From: Sulfuricurvum sp. | Lineage (GTDB): Bacteria; Campylobacterota; Campylobacteria; Campylobacterales; Sulfurimonadaceae | Length of the DNA: 64,000 nt | Direction of reading: 5' to 3' | Assembly (NCBI GenBank): GCA_030693335.1 | Contig: JAUYAU010000007.1 | Coordinates: 1 to 64,000, forward strand | Shown: positions 1,562-9,218 of the stretch, one piece after another | Layout of the letters: each line of letters begins with the position of its first letter | Numbering within the stretch: position 1 is the stretch's first letter | Program-made: the position numbers and the translations under genes | The notes under the pieces: generated by a model | Seen by the model: the letters and a program-made list of their open reading frames with translations, nothing else | What the model was told of the DNA's origin: nothing | Databases searched by the model: none

Positions 1562-2935
1562 ATCGAATTTGGATTCTTAGGACTCGTTCCCCCTTTTATA
1601 GCGATTTTTCTCGCACTTTTCAGCCGGTCTGTTTTTGTGGCCTTGCTCGCCGCTATTTTAATCGGTGAGTTTATCATTTCAGGATACCATCCCGTAGAGA
1701 CCCTGTTCCTTATGAGCGAGCGGTTTTGGGGATTACTCAATGAACTTTGGGTCCTTAAAACACTCGCTTTTGCCATGATGGTGGGGTCAGTTATGACCCT
1801 TATCGAACGAAGTGGCGGGGTTAATGGATTGATTCATGAACTTAGTACCAAACGCTCTCTGGTCAACTCCAAACGAGGAGCATTAATCCCTAGTTTCATT
1901 GCAGGAATTGTGATTTTTATCGAATCGTCTATCACCTCGCTTGTTGCAGGAGCTATCGGACGACCGTTTTGTGATCGTTTTGGCGTTAGTCGTGCAAAAC
2001 TCGCCTTTGTATGCGACTCCACCTCTGCTCCTGTATGTTCCATCATTGCCATCAACGGCTGGGGAGCATTGCTCCTGGGACTCATCGGCGGACAAATCAC
2101 AGCGGGGCTTATAGCCGGAGAGGAAGCGCGCTGGCTTATCAGTGCAATCGGTTACAATTTTTATGCCTATGTCGCTCTTATTGTAGCTTTTGTAACCATT
2201 TGGTACAACATTGATATTGGGCCCATGAAACATTCCATTGTAGTTGAACCCACTATCGAATGCCAAGATGACAAAGGTTCACTGGGACTGTTTTTATGGC
2301 CAATGGTTTGGATGATTGGCGGTGTTTTGGTCTTTATGCTCATTACTGGCAATGGAAACCTCCTAAAGGGATCAGGATCCAGTTCTATTTTCTATACTCT
2401 GATTGTGACCTTGCTTCTCATGTTCGGCTATTATCGACTTAAAAATGCCATGAGCAGTATCGATTTTATCCGTGCAAGCCTCCAAGGGGCAAAAACGATG
2501 ATGCCTATCACATCCATTCTATTATTAGCATTTGCCATTGGGGGAATCAGTTCAGACATGCACGTAGGACAATACCTAGCCTCCTTCATCGGAGATTATC
2601 TTCCAAGTCCCTATCTACCTGCGGCTATTTTTATCCTAGCAGCCATCATTGCTTTTGCTACGGGAACGAGCTGGGGAGCATTTAGTATTATGTTACCTAT
2701 CGCCATCCCACTTGCAGTGGGATTAGACGCTCCCGTTGCACTCGCTATGGGAGCTGTAATATCAGGCGGGGTATTTGGCGATCATTGTTCCCCTATTTCC
2801 GATACTACCATTATCTCTGCTATGGCATCAGGGTGTTCGGTCCAAGAGCACACCAAAACCCAACTTCCCTATGCCCTCATTTCAGCTGGGATATCTCTTC
2901 TATTATTCATAGGGGCAGGATTACTGATTGTCTAA
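1562..2935 (+). CDS. NhaC-family Na+/H+ antiporter, probable ATC start
   Basis: A polytopic membrane protein of about 457 residues with roughly 11-12 hydrophobic segments. The stretch GGVFGDHCSPISDTTIISA near the C-terminus is the conserved core of NhaC-type (IT superfamily) sodium/proton antiporters. The first standard start (GTG 1637) has no ribosome-binding site and would cut into the first membrane segment. The frame stays open to 1553 and encodes IEFGFLGLVPPFIAIFLALF, the usual NhaC N-terminus. No ATG, GTG or TTG lies in that extension. An ATC at 1562 sits six bases after AGGA, so it is taken as the start. GTG at 1637 is the conservative alternative. The substrate could also be malate or another solute, as in some NhaC relatives. 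Confidence 0.8.
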   Translation: MEFGFLGLVPPFIAIFLALFSRSVFVALLAAILIGEFIISGYHPVETLFLMSERFWGLLNELWVLKTLAFAMMVGSVMTLIERSGGVNGLIHELSTKRSLVNSKRGALIPSFIAGIVIFIESSITSLVAGAIGRPFCDRFGVSRAKLAFVCDSTSAPVCSIIAINGWGALLLGLIGGQITAGLIAGEEARWLISAIGYNFYAYVALIVAFVTIWYNIDIGPMKHSIVVEPTIECQDDKGSLGLFLWPMVWMIGGVLVFMLITGNGNLLKGSGSSSIFYTLIVTLLLMFGYYRLKNAMSSIDFIRASLQGAKTMMPITSILLLAFAIGGISSDMHVGQYLASFIGDYLPSPYLPAAIFILAAIIAFATGTSWGAFSIMLPIAIPLAVGLDAPVALAMGAVISGGVFGDHCSPISDTTIISAMASGCSVQEHTKTQLPYALISAGISLLLFIGAGLLIV

Positions 2936-3191
2936 GTTTATTCTTTGGTGCCTCATCATTTTAAGTGCACAAGCGATCGAACCATTTGAAGAACAAAAGC
3001 CGCTTGGTATGACCACCCCAAACACTACTACAGAAAAAACAGTCAAATGGATACCGCTAAATTCTCAAGAAATGCCTCAAAAAACAACCAAAGTATCCAC
3101 AAAAGCCATCGACGATTCTATCAAAAACCAAATCCAAAAGAAAATGCAGGCACTACTAAAACCAGTAAAGGATGACGAGGAAGATCAATAA
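2928..3191 (+). CDS. Small secreted protein of unknown function
   Basis: An 87-residue product starting at TTG 2928, which lies seven bases after AGGA and overlaps the end of the antiporter gene by eight bases. Residues 1-16 form a signal peptide (MSKFILWCLIILSAQA). The rest is hydrophilic, rich in Thr, Lys and Gln, with no motif I recognise. The overlap suggests translational coupling to the antiporter; no function can be given. The signal peptide, ribosome-binding site and overlap support it being a real gene. Confidence 0.6.
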   Translation: MSKFILWCLIILSAQAIEPFEEQKPLGMTTPNTTTEKTVKWIPLNSQEMPQKTTKVSTKAIDDSIKNQIQKKMQALLKPVKDDEEDQ

Positions 3192-3209
3192 AAAAAACTC
3201 TTTTTAACT

Positions 3210-3227
3210 GCTAACACTACGCTAACA
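3210..3227 (+). promoter_or_regulatory. 11-bp-spaced direct repeat, probable response-regulator site
   Basis: GCTAACA occurs at 3210-3216 and again at 3221-3227, exactly 11 bp apart (one helical turn). This is the arrangement bound by OmpR/PhoB-type response regulators. It lies 43 bases before the Met/Gln-rich protein gene at 3270, and a similar CTAA-CTAA pair precedes the related gene at 5426. The likely binder is one of the two regulators encoded here; that is inference. Confidence 0.45.
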
Positions 3228-3269
3228 TTTTTTGGTGACAATGACATCATAAAAACACAAGGAATTACC

Positions 3270-3608
3270 ATGAAAAAACCTTTAATCTTAGTCGCTCTTT
3301 TGAGCATTACATCTTTTGCCGCTGATTACAGTGCAATGACTATGACAGAAATGCAAGCAATGCGCGGAAATATACCTGAAGCTGATCGTCCCGCTTATCA
3401 AGCTGAAATGCAGACCAGAGTTCAAGCCATGACACAAGAAGAGCGTCAAAGCATGCAAAGAAATATGCATCAAAGTAAACAAGACGGCCAAGGATCTATG
3501 ATTCAAAATAGAGTTCGAACCCAGACGCAGACAATGCAGCCACAAATGCAAAACCGTATGCAAAATATGCAGCAACCTATGGGTGGACGTATGGGTGGCG
3601 GTAGATAA
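3270..3608 (+). CDS. Secreted Met/Gln-rich helical protein, DUF1104-like
   Basis: A 112-residue protein with a clean signal peptide (MKKPLILVALLSITSFAA) and a start preceded by AAGGAA. The mature part has ADYSAMTMTEMQAMRGNIPE, then EADRPAYQAEMQ and MTQEERQSMQ, resembling the DUF1104 family of small Campylobacterota proteins. The last 40 residues are almost only Met, Gln, Arg, Asn and Gly. The helical, Gln/Met-rich, periplasmic character and position beside a two-component system recall CpxP/Spy-type stress chaperones or Met-rich metal binders, but no LTxxQ motif is present, so this is only analogy. A second family member lies at 5426. It is followed by the regulator/kinase pair at 3713-5381. 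Confidence 0.7.
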   Translation: MKKPLILVALLSITSFAADYSAMTMTEMQAMRGNIPEADRPAYQAEMQTRVQAMTQEERQSMQRNMHQSKQDGQGSMIQNRVRTQTQTMQPQMQNRMQNMQQPMGGRMGGGR

Positions 3609-3712
3609 GCTATCCAAACCAGGGGAGAGACTTCCCTTGCCCACAACAAGATCACTTGCTATACTTCTAAGGGAACTATACTAAGCGATCTTAAAAACAC
3701 TCAGGAGAACAA

Positions 3713-4345
3713 GTGCGCATACTACTTCTCGAAGATGATTTTGTATTAGGTGAGAGCATTGAAGAGATATTACGCGAAGCCGATTATGAAGTTAACTGGG
3801 TTCGAAACGGTGACGATGCCGCACAACTTTCTTTTGACCATACTTACGACCTTTATTTATTTGATGTTAATGTCCCTGATATAAATGGATTTGAGCTTCT
3901 AGAGCAGCTGCGCGACACAGATGATTCGACTCCGACTATTTTTATCAGTGCACTAAGTGATATCTCATCTATTACCAAAGGTTTTTCATTAGGGGCAGAT
4001 GATTATCTTAAAAAACCTTTTTTTCCTGAAGAACTACTCGTACGTATTGAAGCCAAATTTGCCAAACGTGATCAAACCATCCACTATGGCATGATCACAT
4101 ATAATCCAAAGACAAATGATGTTACCAAGGATGGAGTGTTCATCGCTTTAGGAGACGTTCAATTGCCATTACTGCGACTTTTTATTACCAATATTGGACG
4201 TACCCTCACCAAAGAGACTCTTTTTGATCTTATGGAACACCCCAGTGATACGGCTCTGAGGGTGGCTATTAACAAGCTCAAACAAACAACGGGCTGGGAC
4301 ATCATGAACATACGCGGGATAGGATATCGTATTGAAACACGCTGA
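3713..4345 (+). CDS. OmpR-family response regulator
   Basis: A 210-residue regulator starting at GTG 3713, with GGAG five bases upstream. Residues 1-115 form a receiver domain: acidic pair E7-D8-D9, phospho-acceptor D51 in LYLFDVNVPD, conserved switch S79 (FISALSD) and K101 region (DDYLKKPF). The C-terminal half is a winged-helix DNA-binding domain ending in NIRGIGYRIETR, the usual wing of OmpR/PhoB regulators, though shorter than average. The kinase gene overlaps its end by 14 bases. It probably controls the Met/Gln-rich genes on either side through 11-bp direct repeats. Confidence 0.9.
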   Translation: MRILLLEDDFVLGESIEEILREADYEVNWVRNGDDAAQLSFDHTYDLYLFDVNVPDINGFELLEQLRDTDDSTPTIFISALSDISSITKGFSLGADDYLKKPFFPEELLVRIEAKFAKRDQTIHYGMITYNPKTNDVTKDGVFIALGDVQLPLLRLFITNIGRTLTKETLFDLMEHPSDTALRVAINKLKQTTGWDIMNIRGIGYRIETR

Positions 4346-5381
4346 AACCGAATCTTTTCGTAAGAGTTTTTTAGTTTTCTTTCTTTCTTTGGCCTTATTG
4401 AGCGGGTTTCTTGCTTATTTCGAATATCTCAAGCAAAAGCAAGCACTTGATGCAACGCTGTTTAACCAAATGAAGCTGTGCAGTTTTGATCTTAAATGCA
4501 GCCAGTTTGAGTTTGATTTTGTCCCTTTGCAATCCAGTAAACTCTATACTCTCACCTCAGAGCCTCAAGGGCTATATGCTCTGTTTAGCATTCCGAAAAA
4601 TGACACCTATGCCCTCAAACTGCGTTTTGCCCAAAAACATTACGCCCAACGGCTGTATGAGATCCAAATCATGATCTTAAAATACTATTTATTGAGTATT
4701 GCGGCTATGGCTCTTCTCTCTTTTTTGTTCTCACTTTATGCACTCTATCCTCTGCGTAAAGCACTGAAACTCACAGAGGAATTTAGCCGCGATATTTTAC
4801 ATGATCTCAATACTCCCCTCTCCTCGCTTCGACTTAATGTTTCCCGCTTGAGTGTAGCTGAGGGTGAGAGAAAAAAAATTGAGCGAATTGAATACAGCAT
4901 CCAAGCCATTGCTTCTCTGGGTAATAATCTTCGCAGTTATCTTGACGGGCACGAATTGCAGCAAGAAAAAATAGAACTTTTTAGCCTCTTGCAAGAGCGA
5001 GTTTCCATCGTAAAACGACTTTATCCGGACATCACCTTTCACTTAGACGGATCATCGCTTGCCATCCATACTAATCGGGATGCTATTATTCGCATTTTTG
5101 ATAATCTTTTAAGCAATGCTGCAAAATACAACAACGCTCATGGTTGCGTTTGGATCAATACCTCTGGCTCAACCATAGTAATTCATGATAATGGCAAGGG
5201 GATCAAAAATACCACAAAAATATTTGACCGCTTTTACAAAGAACATGATCGCGGGCTGGGGATCGGTCTGCATATCGTCAAAAAACTTTGTGATGCCATA
5301 CATATTTCCATAGAGGTACAAAGTACTTTAGGAAAAGGGACTCGGTTCGCTCTCAATTTTAAAGCACTAATGGATCACTAA
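4332..5381 (+). CDS. Membrane sensor histidine kinase
   Basis: A 349-residue kinase starting at TTG 4332, seven bases after AGGA and inside the end of the regulator gene. Residues 13-33 and about 117-140 are membrane segments flanking a periplasmic sensor loop of some 80 residues that contains two Cys (C50, C56). The H-box is ILHDLNTPLSSLRL with phospho-acceptor H157; the N-box is FDNLLSNAAKYN and the G-box GLGIGLHIVKKL. No clear HAMP domain is visible between the second membrane segment and the H-box. It should phosphorylate the regulator encoded at 3713. The Cys pair could sense redox state or metal, which is inference. Its stop codon overlaps the second CTAA repeat. Confidence 0.9.
   Translation: MKHAETESFRKSFLVFFLSLALLSGFLAYFEYLKQKQALDATLFNQMKLCSFDLKCSQFEFDFVPLQSSKLYTLTSEPQGLYALFSIPKNDTYALKLRFAQKHYAQRLYEIQIMILKYYLLSIAAMALLSFLFSLYALYPLRKALKLTEEFSRDILHDLNTPLSSLRLNVSRLSVAEGERKKIERIEYSIQAIASLGNNLRSYLDGHELQQEKIELFSLLQERVSIVKRLYPDITFHLDGSSLAIHTNRDAIIRIFDNLLSNAAKYNNAHGCVWINTSGSTIVIHDNGKGIKNTTKIFDRFYKEHDRGLGIGLHIVKKLCDAIHISIEVQSTLGKGTRFALNFKALMDH
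5365..5381 (+). promoter_or_regulatory. 11-bp-spaced CACTAA direct repeat before second DUF1104-like gene
   Basis: CACTAA at 5365-5370 recurs at 5376-5381, 11 bp apart, matching the CTAA-N7-CTAA core of the site at 3211-3225. It is buried in the last codons of the kinase gene, 45 bases before the ATG of the gene at 5426; a TACAAT at 5393-5398 could serve as -10. Together with the first site it suggests a shared operator for an OmpR-type regulator. Confidence 0.4.
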
Positions 5382-5425
5382 CACTTCTGTACTACAATCC
5401 CCATTTCAGATACAAGGAAAATACA

Positions 5426-5773
5426 ATGAATACGTTAAGAACAGGACTCATCGCAGTGATACTCAGTACTTCACTTCTTTATGGAGCAGATACGATCAAC
5501 GAACAAATCCAAGCCATCCAAAAGGCTTCTGTACAAGAGCGTGCAGAGCTTATGAATAAACTCAAAATACAAATAGCATCCATGAATGAAGAAGAACGTG
5601 CCGATGCAATTAGCAGCCTTCGCACGAGTATGGGAGGTGAGGCTATAAATACTAGAGGCTTCCAAGCACCTATGAGTAGTTCACAGCGGATACAGCAATC
5701 TGCACAACAAAACACACTTATCCAACGTTCAAGCACTCAAATCAATAGTCAAATACCGCGAATGGGGCGATAA
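5426..5773 (+). CDS. Second secreted DUF1104-like protein
   Basis: A 115-residue protein with signal peptide (MNTLRTGLIAVILSTSLLYG) and an AAGGAA ribosome-binding site. The mature part contains INEQIQAIQKASVQERAELM and MNEEERADAISSL, the same alternating helical pattern and EER motif as the protein at 3270, so the two are probably paralogues. The tail is rich in Gln, Ser and Asn and ends RMGR, like the RMGGGR end of the other. It abuts the outer-membrane protein gene (stop TAA directly followed by its ATG), so they form one transcription unit. Role unknown; a periplasmic stress or metal-binding role is a guess. Confidence 0.65.
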   Translation: MNTLRTGLIAVILSTSLLYGADTINEQIQAIQKASVQERAELMNKLKIQIASMNEEERADAISSLRTSMGGEAINTRGFQAPMSSSQRIQQSAQQNTLIQRSSTQINSQIPRMGR

Positions 5774-6583
5774 ATGAAAAAAATACTTTTACTTTCACTG
5801 CTATTAAGTGGGTATCTGTTGGCCGCTGACAGTGATCTAGATGGCGTAGATGATGATCAAGATCAATGTATGAACACACCTTTTAGCGATCTTGTCAATG
5901 CAAGAGGATGCACCATACGCTCATTACAATCCGATCTCAATTATGACATTATCTTGGGTGCCGGCTATTCCCAAATAAATTATGCTTCCCAAGAAAAAGC
6001 CAATACTACAACCCAAACGATTCAAGCCGACTACTACAACGGCAATATTTGGGCACAAGTAACAGGATCTTATTTTAACTCATCCTCTCCTAGCTTTAAA
6101 CAAAGCGGTTTAGGTGATACCCTTATCGCTATTTATTATAAGTCACTGTTTGAAAATGGAATTACCATACAAACCGGGGTTGGTGTTCTGCTCCCGACAT
6201 ACAACAGCGGCTACCATAATGAAGCAGTTGATTATCAAGGTTCTATAAACGTCCAGTACGATCTAAATGATCGCTATAATCTCTTTGGCGGATACAGCTA
6301 TACTCTTGTGGGCGATAAAGATGTCCCTAGTACCCTACTGTATCAAAACACACAAGCATTTTATGCAGGAGCTGGATATACTCTAAGTGACAAAGCGACT
6401 ATCAGCAGTACCTATGCCCAATCGCAAAGTATGTATGTAGGTACACAAACCATTAAGACTGCCTCAGCCAGTCTCTTTTACCAGTTAAGTACCCATTGGT
6501 TCACCATGCTTGATTATCGATACGGATTGAGTGATTCGGCAAGTGATCAAGACGGTTCTGTGCGAATCGGTTACTCTTTTTAG
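5774..6583 (+). CDS. Predicted outer-membrane barrel with Ca-binding thrombospondin-type repeat
   Basis: A 269-residue protein with signal peptide (to about residue 18, SGYLLAA). The mature N-terminus is SDLDGVDDDQDQCMNTP, a thrombospondin type 3 repeat that normally binds calcium through its Asp residues, followed by a paired Cys in RGCTIR. From residue 55 on there are regularly alternating amphipathic strands rich in Tyr, Gly and Thr. The last residues (SVRIGYSF) end in Phe, the usual outer-membrane barrel signal. It looks like a DUF3187/porin-like barrel. The gene follows the DUF1104-like gene without a gap and precedes the second two-component system, which may sense conditions linked to its function. 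Confidence 0.65.
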   Translation: MKKILLLSLLLSGYLLAADSDLDGVDDDQDQCMNTPFSDLVNARGCTIRSLQSDLNYDIILGAGYSQINYASQEKANTTTQTIQADYYNGNIWAQVTGSYFNSSSPSFKQSGLGDTLIAIYYKSLFENGITIQTGVGVLLPTYNSGYHNEAVDYQGSINVQYDLNDRYNLFGGYSYTLVGDKDVPSTLLYQNTQAFYAGAGYTLSDKATISSTYAQSQSMYVGTQTIKTASASLFYQLSTHWFTMLDYRYGLSDSASDQDGSVRIGYSF

Positions 6584-6596
6584 GGCAAGTGTATGC

Positions 6597-6602
6597 TAAA
6601 AT
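6597..6602 (+). promoter_or_regulatory. Extended -10 (TGCTAAAAT) just before second regulator gene
   Basis: TGC-TAAAAT with its hexamer at 6597-6602 fits an extended -10 element. The ATG at 6609 is only seven bases downstream and no Shine-Dalgarno sequence is visible, so a transcript from here would be leaderless. Confidence 0.3.
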
Positions 6603-6608
6603 CTTTTT

Positions 6609-7277
6609 ATGACAAAAACGAAACTATTTCTTTTAGAAGATGATCCCAATCTCAGCGAAAGCGTCACTGAATATCTGGAAGAACATGGGTATAGCGTTAC
6701 GTGTGCTTACGATGCTGCCAGCGCGGAAGATCTCCTTTATGAAACTAAATTTGATTTGCTCCTGCTGGATGTGAATGTTCCCGGAGGAGATGGATTCTCT
6801 CTTTTGAAAAACTCCCGCAGCGGTGGGAATACTACTCCTGCCATTTTTATCACCTCCCGTAATGCTATGAACGATTTAGAAGAAGGGTTTAAAAGCGGCG
6901 GTGATGATTACTTGCGCAAACCCTATGAGCTTAAAGAGCTTCTATTACGGATACAAACGATCCTCAAACGCAATTTTTATCACCCATCCAGCGATCTTAT
7001 CGCTCTGGGAGAAGGAATCAGCTACGATACCGAAAATCAATCCCTTCTAATCAATGGCACTGAGCAATCCCTTCAACCCAAAGAACACAAACTGCTCAAA
7101 CTTTTCATTCAACATATCGGAGAATTGCTTACCCATGAGACCATCATGGACCATTTATGGGAATACGATGAAATATCCAATGATGGGAGCCTGCGCACGT
7201 ACATCAAAACGCTTCGCAAACTGCTAGGAAAGGACCGCATTGTCAGCCACAAACGCATCGGGTATCAGTTCCGCTAA
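6609..7277 (+). CDS. OmpR-family response regulator (second system)
   Basis: A 222-residue regulator. The receiver domain has acidic residues E10-D11-D12, phospho-acceptor D54 in LLLLDVNVPG, a switch Thr/Ser in FITSRN and the Lys of DDYLRKPYE. The C-terminal winged helix runs from about residue 130 and ends RIVSHKRIGYQFR. It is full length for the family and about 35-40% like the regulator at 3713 by eye. No ribosome-binding site precedes the ATG. The partner kinase starts inside its last codons (38-base overlap). With the neighbouring barrel genes it suggests control of the cell envelope. Confidence 0.9.
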   Translation: MTKTKLFLLEDDPNLSESVTEYLEEHGYSVTCAYDAASAEDLLYETKFDLLLLDVNVPGGDGFSLLKNSRSGGNTTPAIFITSRNAMNDLEEGFKSGGDDYLRKPYELKELLLRIQTILKRNFYHPSSDLIALGEGISYDTENQSLLINGTEQSLQPKEHKLLKLFIQHIGELLTHETIMDHLWEYDEISNDGSLRTYIKTLRKLLGKDRIVSHKRIGYQFR

Positions 7278-8424
7278 ATACCAAACCCTCAAACGCTTTT
7301 TAGCGTTGTATGGGGTGCTGGTGATCGTGATCCTCGCATTGCTGGGAACGTTGTATCACCAATACGCCAAAACACAAATGATCTCTTCGCATCGTTTGGC
7401 GATGCAGCTGGAAAGTGAGTCCTATGTCCCTGTTTTAAAACAATGGCTCGAACAGGATCGAAACCTTAAAACTTTCCCTCAAGATCTCGCTTACGCAACA
7501 GCACTCTACGGATACGATCAAAAACTCCTCGTCGGAAATCTCAAAAATAACTCATTAAATTTTAAAGAAAGCATTACCATGGAAGAGGGTTTTGTTCATC
7601 TTATCGTCCCTTTGGCTCCCTATGGTTTGGGAGAGTTTTATCTCGTATTTGAAACTTCTGATGATGGATTGTGGCAAACTCAGGCGATTGAAAAAGCTTT
7701 TTTGTTGGGTTTGCTCCTTTTTACCTTTTTACTGCTGATCGGATTTATTTTGGCACGGTTGTTGTTGCGCCCCATGAACGAAGCAATCGCCCTTCTCGAT
7801 GATTTTATCAAAGACACTACCCATGAACTCAATACCCCCATCAGTGCCATTTTGACCAATCTCGAAGCGCTCAATGGGGAACAAATCCCCGAATCAATGC
7901 AAAAAAAACTAAAACGGATCGAAATCGCATCCCGCACCATCTCAACGCTGTACGATGATCTCACCTACCTCATCCTTAACCATGATTTGGCTCTCGTCAA
8001 TGAACCGCTGAATGTAAGCGAATTACTGGAGGAACGGCTGGAGTATTTTCGCCATCGTATAGAGCAAAAGAAAATCCATTTAGAGCTTACCATTGCCCCT
8101 CATATTTTTCTCGTCATCGATCGTACCAAAATGACCCGAATACTCGATAATCTCCTCTCCAATGCCATCAAGTACAATAAGATGAACGGAACCATAGCCA
8201 TTGGGTTAAATGAGGGGATTTTATGCATTGAGGACAACGGCATCGGTATCCCCGCTTCTATGATCACTCAGGTTTTTGAACGCTATACGAGGGCCGATAA
8301 AAGCGTCGGAGGATTTGGAATCGGCTTGCACATCGTTGCGATGATCGCCAAAGAGTATAATCTGGATATCACTATCGAATCAGAAGAGAGAACAAGAACG
8401 AAGATTTGTATCGGATGGAAATAA
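7240..8424 (+). CDS. Membrane sensor histidine kinase (second system)
   Basis: A 394-residue kinase whose TTG start at 7240 lies five bases after AAAGGA within the regulator gene; no other plausible start lies before the first membrane segment (residues 19-38). The periplasmic part is about 110 residues, the second membrane segment is near residues 153-176. H195 in DTTHELNTPISAIL is the phospho-acceptor. The N-box is LDNLLSNAIKYN and the G-boxes are EDNGIGIP and GGFGIGLHIV. It should signal to the regulator at 6609. The stop codon overlaps the ATG of the next gene (TAATG). Confidence 0.9.
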   Translation: MSATNASGISSAKYQTLKRFLALYGVLVIVILALLGTLYHQYAKTQMISSHRLAMQLESESYVPVLKQWLEQDRNLKTFPQDLAYATALYGYDQKLLVGNLKNNSLNFKESITMEEGFVHLIVPLAPYGLGEFYLVFETSDDGLWQTQAIEKAFLLGLLLFTFLLLIGFILARLLLRPMNEAIALLDDFIKDTTHELNTPISAILTNLEALNGEQIPESMQKKLKRIEIASRTISTLYDDLTYLILNHDLALVNEPLNVSELLEERLEYFRHRIEQKKIHLELTIAPHIFLVIDRTKMTRILDNLLSNAIKYNKMNGTIAIGLNEGILCIEDNGIGIPASMITQVFERYTRADKSVGGFGIGLHIVAMIAKEYNLDITIESEERTRTKICIGWK

Positions 8425-9218
8425 TGAAATTTTCTTTTTTACTCTTACCATTATGCACTATCCCTTCCCTCACTAATGCTACGGATTGGTCTATGACGCA
8501 TGGGGTTCACGATTTTTTCGTTCGTGAAAAAAGTTCCCATACCTTTGGAGCTGATCTGGGAGTAGCCGGTGAAAAGACAACCGACTCAGGAACACATCTA
8601 AACGGAAGCTTTACCGTTTTTTTAGCCAATGACCAAGACAGGCTGGATCCTGATTATGAACCTCTGTGGTATAAGATGGATGGTCAAGCGACAGGAGAAC
8701 TTTACCCCTTAACGTCATATAGCGGATTTAATTGGCTGGTAAAATTTGATGGTAAGCTCAACACTCCAAGTGGGATTGAAAAACAGCATAAGCTTTTTGG
8801 AGGATTTAACGCACACTATACGACATCCACGATCAATGTATCTCTTGAAAGCCTTGTCGGATATTATTTTTTAGAAATTGATGACGATGTGCCTCTTCTA
8901 CGCGGGTATGATCTCGGTGATTTGCAGAATAAAACAACCGCCTACAGCGTAATGGCCGATAGTAAAATCAGAGTGAATTCAAAGATGAATGCCTATGTGC
9001 GAATCCAACAATACAGAGATGACAATCAATGGCTGGAAAATCAGTATGAACTGATACTCAACCACGATGCAACCCAATGGATACAAAGCAGCACCCTTAC
9101 ACTCAGTGCTGAACATACCAAATACAATCTGAATCCCTATCAAAGAACAGGCCTAATGCCTATTCTCCCCTGGAATTCGGACACCCTTGTCCGCCTCTAT
9201 TTGAGTGTTGCTATATAA
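8424..9218 (+). CDS. Predicted outer-membrane beta-barrel protein, unknown function
   Basis: The ATG at 8424 overlaps the kinase stop and gives a 264-residue product with a signal peptide (MKFSFLLLPLCTIPSLTNA). The mature part has many alternating strands with aromatic ends (for example GYYFLEIDDD, MNAYVRIQQY) and ends TLVRLYLSVAI, resembling a barrel of 12 or so strands. I do not recognise the family. It is cotranscribed with the second two-component system and may be its target or sensor accessory. Its last 22 bases overlap the 3' end of the convergent cytochrome gene. Confidence 0.55.
   Translation: MKFSFLLLPLCTIPSLTNATDWSMTHGVHDFFVREKSSHTFGADLGVAGEKTTDSGTHLNGSFTVFLANDQDRLDPDYEPLWYKMDGQATGELYPLTSYSGFNWLVKFDGKLNTPSGIEKQHKLFGGFNAHYTTSTINVSLESLVGYYFLEIDDDVPLLRGYDLGDLQNKTTAYSVMADSKIRVNSKMNAYVRIQQYRDDNQWLENQYELILNHDATQWIQSSTLTLSAEHTKYNLNPYQRTGLMPILPWNSDTLVRLYLSVAI

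Follow-up and report, generated by a model that had tools for sequence, protein, structure and literature searches.

In a 64,000-nucleotide stretch of a Sulfuricurvum sp. genome (Campylobacterota; Sulfurimonadaceae; GenBank assembly GCA_030693335.1, 2.17 Mb in 18 contigs; contig JAUYAU010000007.1, positions 1 to 64,000), hereafter the window, we identified a conserved four-gene cassette encoding an OmpR-type response regulator (RR1), a sensor kinase (HK1), a small secreted protein (S2) and a predicted outer-membrane barrel with an Asp-rich, TSP3-like motif (TSP). We think it reasonably probable that RR1-HK1-S2-TSP constitutes a self-regulated envelope-sensing cassette, in which a probable sensor of soft metals or thiol redox state induces secreted Met/Gln-rich proteins together with a 12-strand channel. 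This interpretation rests on the observed conservation of the four genes, on the conservation and position of a putative operator, on the conservation of a cysteine pair in the kinase, and on a structural model of the barrel; binding of RR1 to the operator, the signal, and the roles of S2 and the barrel are inferred.

Conservation of the cassette was assessed in 60 loci with HK1 orthologues from genomes of the family, fetched first, and then in 80 named loci, with organisms overlapping between the two sets. Among the named loci, RR1 adjoins HK1 in all 80, S2 is close to HK1 and shares its strand in 77, and all four genes were found together on one strand in 74, ordered either RR-HK-S2-TSP (52 loci) or S2-TSP-RR-HK (22 loci). 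The six exceptions comprise four contig ends (L219, L236, L249 and L252, with S2 beyond the contig start in L236 and L249), one locus in which three opposite-strand genes separate S2 from TSP (L232), and one from which TSP is absent (L247). The conserved unit is therefore these four genes, and not the eight proposed in an initial annotation of this DNA; its homologues were not scattered among unrelated neighbourhoods, and an S1-like gene, encoding a further small secreted protein, occurs near HK1 in 17 of the 80 loci. Of the family's 151 genomes, 85 encode an HK1 orthologue (at least 41% identity), counting one partial match; the closest HK1 proteins among named records are from Sulfuricurvum metagenome-assembled genomes (79-82% identity). 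The cassette is also present outside the family, in families f4, f5, f9 and f11; among the matches listed, no full-length HK1 match was found in families f2 and f3, with kinase-core matches only in f2. In a tree quickly built from 136 HK1 proteins, the S2-first order requires five changes, three of them forced by well-supported branches, which indicates that the cassette genes have remained linked despite being rearranged more than once.

The layout of the cassette and its neighbours in the window is as follows:

1637..2935, forward strand: NhaC-like antiporter gene (Tet(35)/NhaC-family matches below cut-off), the left flank of an older NhaC-RR2-HK2 locus and outside the cassette
2928-3191: p87, a small protein (87 aa) encoded between NhaC and S1, its start being signal-like
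3210..3227, forward strand: putative RR1 operator, tandem CTAAC repeats with an 11-nt period, 42 nt before S1 and followed by a possible -10 box (GTGACAAT)
3270..3608, forward strand: S1, secreted Met/Gln-rich DUF1104 protein (PF06518), predicted accessory target
3713..4345, forward strand: RR1, OmpR-type response regulator (Response_reg match), cassette core
4332..5381, forward strand: HK1, sensor kinase (HisKA and HATPase_c above cut-off), cassette core
5377..5394, forward strand: degenerate putative RR1 site before S2, with one good half-repeat (11.2 bits)
5426..5773, forward strand: S2, small secreted Gln-rich protein whose N-terminal unit appears distantly related to DUF1104, cassette core
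5774..6583, forward strand: TSP, Asp-rich TSP3-like motif followed by a predicted 12-strand outer-membrane barrel, cassette core
6609..7277, forward strand: RR2, a second, separate OmpR-type regulator (domain matches), which meets NhaC directly in relatives lacking the cassette at this site
7240..8424, forward strand: HK2, a second, separate sensor kinase (domain matches)
8424..9218, forward strand: BAR, the end of the RR2-HK2 locus, called a barrel in the initial annotation, a fold name that serves here as a label

Both kinases and both receiver domains were confirmed by Pfam. The order from S1 to BAR agreed with the initial annotation once coordinates had been checked, and all of these genes have a single orientation; the range given there, ending at 8424, encloses seven of the genes, with BAR running beyond it.

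The initial annotation had read these genes as one eight-gene unit containing two cooperating, interleaved two-component systems (TCS), a reading in keeping with their common direction and short gaps (-38 to 104 nt) and with the presence of HK2 just downstream of the cassette, on the same strand, in some named loci. We rejected the single unit and consider it extremely improbable: HK2 occupies that position in only 8 of the 80 loci, the first system has its own conserved boundary, and RR2-HK2 is a separate system belonging to an older NhaC-RR2-HK2 locus, a neighbour of the cassette and not its partner. Among 19 loci of relatives fetched around HK2 (L310-L328), NhaC meets RR2 at offset 0 in seven, the NhaC stop overlapping the RR2 start in each of the four that were inspected; the offset is 244-1,675 nt in eight further loci, and four gave no measurable pair. 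In the window the offset reaches 3,677 nt, with p87, S1 and the cassette in between; the cassette is an insertion between NhaC and RR2. Furthermore, a close relative (L318, HK2 94% identical) carries the second system without RR1 there, the best HK1 match in its genome (G130) being at E 1.4e-31, and the operator motif trained on S1 sites (see below) was not detected before RR2 (0/14) or HK2 (0/15). HK2 itself has a nearly full-length match of at least 65% identity in 35 of 41 same-genus genomes. BAR is lineage-restricted (present in L040, L041 and L314) and gave no Pfam or NCBIfam match in the profile search of window proteins.

p87 also occurs in relatives without the cassette at this site (L318, L320, L321). 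The NhaC-RR2 interval was seen to be a variable insertion site, in which L040 and L043 have a 281-289 aa protein resembling an ADP-ribosylglycohydrolase and L318 has a protein of similar size. A paralogue of RR1 elsewhere in the window genome (L309) was considered as a further cassette and rejected, as it lies beside a different, 293-aa kinase with no S2 or TSP labelled there.

The stretches upstream of S1 and of first-position S2 genes share tandem CTAAC repeats, spaced by 11 nt, before a -10-like box (general form GCTAACACTnCrCTAACA). The repeat was present in 40 of 61 upstream stretches, compared with a mean of 0.74 and a maximum of 3 in shuffles. In the window, the site at 3210-3227 matches GCTAACACTNCNCTAACA without mismatch (26.3 bits), the sole perfect match in the 2.17 Mb genome, the next-best having two mismatches. 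To avoid circularity, a motif was trained on 15 S1 (DUF1104) sites only and applied at a threshold of 14 bits. Among S2 genes, sites were recovered before 50 of the 82 located after HK1, 27 of the 45 in first position and 3 of the 10 second copies, as well as before 19 of 29 S1 genes (the training class), compared with RR1 (10/148), other genes (22/1,123), HK1 (0/145) and TSP barrels (0/118); column-permuted motifs reached a mean of 0.07 of the 82 S2-after-HK1 genes (maximum 3). The full motif, at 16 bits or above, gave 154 sites in 1.70 Mb of fetched loci, of which 84 precede S2, 20 S1, 17 RR1 and 28 other genes, with five at edges. From this conservation and position we infer that RR1 binds the tandem CTAAC repeat, which is likely its operator. 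A separate scan for promoters and terminators was without signal (9 promoter-like matches against 14.5 in shuffles; 7 terminator-like against 5.2).

Given that the exact pattern was too strict for a genome-wide survey (12 of 101 genomes), one mismatch was allowed, with the reversed pattern as control. This identified 44 sites in 33 of the 151 genomes, against 8 control matches. Loci were read for 30 of the 44 sites: the window genome's own site precedes S1, while the other 29 precede S2 (12), DUF2202 (11), DUF1104 (1) and RR1 (1) genes, or another or no gene (4). HK1 orthologues occur in 32 of the 33 site-bearing genomes versus 85 of 151 overall (Fisher p 1e-8) and in 16 of the 17 that have sites remote from the cassette (p 5e-4), compared with 5 of 8 control-pattern genomes (p 1.0), although genome relatedness inflates these tests and renders the p-values optimistic. 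The DUF2202 proteins, presumably ferritin-like, emerge as recurrent candidate targets: of the 11 genes, three lie next to the cassette and two next to a paralogous TCS, the other six being found in different places; a literature search, with most subscription papers outside its coverage, gave no paper on this family.

Away from the cassette, secreted or lipoprotein DUF2202 genes were observed with the operator approximately 45 nt before the start (L357, L358, L363, L364, L373, L378). Also observed were paralogous HK1-like TCS (approximately 33% identity; L343, L360, L362) with a perfect operator before a DUF2202 gene located just upstream.

Turning to the sensor pair, RR1 matched Response_reg (89.3 bits) and HK1 both HisKA (28.8 bits) and HATPase_c (64.4 bits), all above cut-off, whereas the CopRS/CusRS models (TIGR01387/TIGR01386) were not reached by either (RR1 98.2 versus 279.2 bits; HK1 58.4 versus 292.55 bits). 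The periplasmic loop of HK1, of approximately 70 residues, holds M47, C50 and C56, the cysteine pair of the initial annotation. M47 and C50 are invariant in an 81-row alignment, and across 137 kinases M47 is kept in 134 and the two cysteines occur together in 115, singly in one and not at all in 21 (one of them truncated); in 8 of these 21, a CX4C pair is found instead at a later position in the loop. This both-or-neither pattern and the alternative pair suggest that C50 and C56 form a disulfide or share a metal site. A model of HK1 residues 1-150 places two long helices around four strands (predicted local distance difference test, pLDDT, 88); structural matches of the loop to sensor-type domains (Z approximately 4-7.5 only) are mixed with coiled coils and are only suggestive of a small PAS/Cache-like fold.

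S1 belongs to DUF1104 by profile match (32.2 bits against a cut-off of 25), while S2 has no Pfam match above cut-off, DUF1104 included. On profile-profile comparison, the two families are nonetheless distant relatives (probability 95, E 3.5e-8; BLASTP E 0.011), in line with their earlier description as paralogue-like. Both proteins are small, with signal-peptide-like starts. Their description as a Met/Gln-rich pair holds for S1 in both residues (16% Met, 21% Gln) and for S2 in glutamine (15%), but the window S2 has 5% methionine only; across 125 S2 proteins the values are 13% Gln and 8% Met, against backgrounds of 3.5% and 2.6%. A search of the S2 profile against solved structures returned protein A chains as best matches, which we read as chance helical resemblance. 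Helicobacter pylori proteins of the same Pfam family as S1 (HP0719-HP0721) are described as detected in outer-membrane vesicles (PMC11394524).

Downstream of S2, the Asp positions of the TSP motif are conserved in 60-61 of the 61 barrels compared, and all 61 have C32/C46. A calcium-binding TSP3 motif was read there initially; the Pfam TSP_3 model scores below cut-off (11.7 versus 25 bits), but the Asp positions are near-invariant. An AlphaFold2 model predicts a 12-strand barrel after the motif (pLDDT 90), with FapF, the Pseudomonas amyloid transporter and likewise a 12-strand barrel, as best structural match (Z 23.4 over 210 residues, 2.5 A; Foldseek E 3e-11); TSP differs in having its Asp motif where FapF has a periplasmic region. 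FapF cannot be singled out, since a COG4313 channel scored nearly as well (Z 22.1). Agreement with DUF3187 (PF11383) fell just under cut-off (23.6 versus 24 bits), and a literature search on that family returned nothing relevant. In a phylum-wide barrel search (106 of 298 genomes), many hits were short and fell on TSP3 repeats in other proteins; these were not counted as barrels. TSP is likely an outer-membrane channel, as judged from the model.

These structural matches raise the alternative of a secretion pair formed by S2 and the barrel, in which a FapF-like channel exports the Gln/Met-rich S2 to the cell surface as a matrix component or extracellular metal binder, with the TCS controlling production. 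S2 and the barrel adjoin in both gene orders (gap 0 nt in the window), the top four matches of the TSP sequence profile in the Protein Data Bank are all FapF, and FapF is described as exporting the amyloid FapC (PMC5557850). Set against this, the FapF profile matches are weak and not significant (E 0.03-0.05), the COG4313 channel fits the barrel almost equally well, and S2 tails vary greatly in both length and sequence, so that we regard a secretion pair as quite unlikely. Very unlikely, in our estimate, is a wider, self-regulated kind of surface-defence module in Campylobacterota, not described before, in which a thiol-switch sensor acting through one conserved operator would combine Met/Gln-rich polypeptides exported by a FapF-like barrel with extracytoplasmic ferritin-like DUF2202 lipoproteins in a metal-sequestering coat outside the cell.

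As to the signal perceived by the cassette as an envelope sensor, genes next to it in a minority of loci lead us to propose, with moderate confidence, soft metals or thiol redox. In 10 loci a CusA/CzcA-family RND pump was found upstream of, and co-directional with, the cassette, and in a count by BLAST cluster it is the gene directly upstream in 12 of 117; in L062 its adaptor and outer-membrane partner were identified, the pump matching CusA at 578 and ZneA at 570 bits, and L058 holds another RND pump on the opposite strand. Distant HK1 relatives lie beside MerA, DsbD, FTR1 and an LTXXQ protein (L295), beside ArsR/SmtB and a Met-rich LTXXQ protein (L293), and beside NosZ (L298), while a heavy-metal P-type ATPase adjoins the HK1 relative of L299, with a near-identical gene in L301. 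The earlier suggestion is supported as regards an envelope sensing module having secreted Met/Gln-rich proteins and a conserved cysteine pair; its metal or stress signal is plausible from genomic context.

Some of the same neighbours would also fit a general system for envelope (protein-folding) stress akin to Cpx/Bae/Spy, in which S1 and S2 would be helical chaperones and feedback proteins resembling Spy/CpxP, metals being only one inducer among many. The small size, signal-peptide-like starts and Gln/Met-richness of S1 and S2 are compatible with such a role, as are the LTXXQ/Spy-like proteins beside the RR1-HK1 relatives in L293 and L295, the operator sites that lie 48-82 nt ahead of the gene following HK1 in these two loci, and the DsbD gene in L295. 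However, S1 and S2 have no LTXXQ (PF07813) match at E up to 1, and RR1 and HK1 score far below the CpxR/BaeR and CpxA/BaeS cut-offs. To our knowledge, Cpx/Bae/Spy systems also lack a conserved barrel and DUF2202 targets. Taken together, we consider this alternative unlikely.

Under the preferred reading of a soft-metal or thiol-redox cassette, HK1 would read a periplasmic signal through its small PAS/Cache-like loop, with C50 and C56, together with M47, acting as a disulfide switch or as a soft-metal site, e.g. for Cu(I). HK1 would phosphorylate RR1, which would bind the tandem CTAAC repeats just upstream of the -10-like box and switch on S2 and the barrel, along with lineage-specific extra targets such as DUF1104 proteins (S1 among them), DUF2202 proteins, Spy-like Met-rich proteins and c-type cytochromes. 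Metal buffering or protection of envelope proteins might then fall to the small Met/Gln-rich proteins, and the barrel may serve as outer-membrane channel for the same response.

A number of observations weigh against this interpretation. The winged-helix match of RR1 (Trans_reg_C, 22.3 bits, E 1.4e-4) lies below its cut-off of 26.2, and family f8 has an S2-TSP pair without a TCS, with RR1-HK1 at a different place in those genomes. In the window, the cassette has no metal gene beside it, and an HME-RND pump is absent from the window genes around it; at most loci no metal gene was recognised, by a family search that did not cover every neighbour. The 10 RND loci are all S2-first and fall in one 30-row tree clade, and may reflect one or two events. 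The loci with distant relatives beside metal-related or redox genes (L293, L295, L298, L299) have no C50/C56 pair, and neither kind of cysteine pair is present in 12 full-length and one truncated HK1 relatives, including those beside MerA (L295) and the heavy-metal ATPase (L299). Regarding the operator, the window S2 has a weak site only (11.2 bits), and at three mismatches the genome holds 12 operator-like versus 53 control-pattern matches, which leaves the perfect site as the sole one to stand out. DUF2202 was discarded as a target in this genome, where no gene of that family is present. Finally, since exact sites directly precede regulator genes of other TCS (L350, L351), and the L343 site precedes a DUF2202 gene that itself precedes a paralogous TCS, other regulators may read the operator box, and paralogous response regulators may share it.

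Envelope stress responses of Campylobacterota are known mainly from two pathogens. DccRS of Campylobacter jejuni has a tandem-repeat operator. This system resembles the cassette as an OmpR-type TCS described as activating a handful of genes for putative periplasmic or membrane proteins, and CrdRS of H. pylori (copper, nitrosative stress), compared here by description only, is likewise a Campylobacterota TCS tied to copper (PMC9449129). By comparative anatomy, the closest systems are copMRS of Synechocystis and cusRS of Escherichia coli. In the former, as reported (PMC4335983), a small secreted Met-rich protein is encoded with a response regulator-kinase pair and an HME-RND pump (copBAC) is under the same TCS, with CopM being periplasmic, partly extracellular and able to bind Cu(I); CopM, however, has DUF305 domains and eight His residues where S2 is DUF1104-like, the excerpt of that report names no barrel, and an RND pump adjoins our cassette only in some lineages. 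In E. coli, a TCS described as sensing periplasmic copper lies beside the CusA pump and a small periplasmic protein (cusCFBA), but the CusS sites are given as His and Met (PMC10100754), whereas HK1 has a Cys pair and M47. RR1 and HK1 also score far below the CopR/CusR and CopS/CusS models. The cassette was absent from the literature searched, consisting of titles and the starts of abstracts, with most subscription papers outside coverage. The cassette would tie DUF1104, the S2 family, the TSP3 barrel and DUF2202, all of unassigned role, to one regulator and one DNA site, offering a candidate sensor of thiols or metals and a testable regulon that spans sulphur oxidisers of vents and sediments.

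Further variation was observed around the cassette and its relatives. In L136, a DUF1104 protein fused to EF-hands (6164-6748) shows a calcium-binding motif recurring in the cassette neighbourhood. Five loci of family f10 (L289, L290, L306, L307 and L308) have a DUF1104-like gene divergent from RR1-HK1 and a small protein behind, with no barrel; four of these (L289, L306-L308) also hold genes resembling nifDK. Lastly, the DnaG primase downstream of the cassette (L069, L095, L234) is approximately 930 aa long in some Sulfurimonas versus approximately 555 aa in others, and the extra part, following a CFGC motif, reads like an intein.

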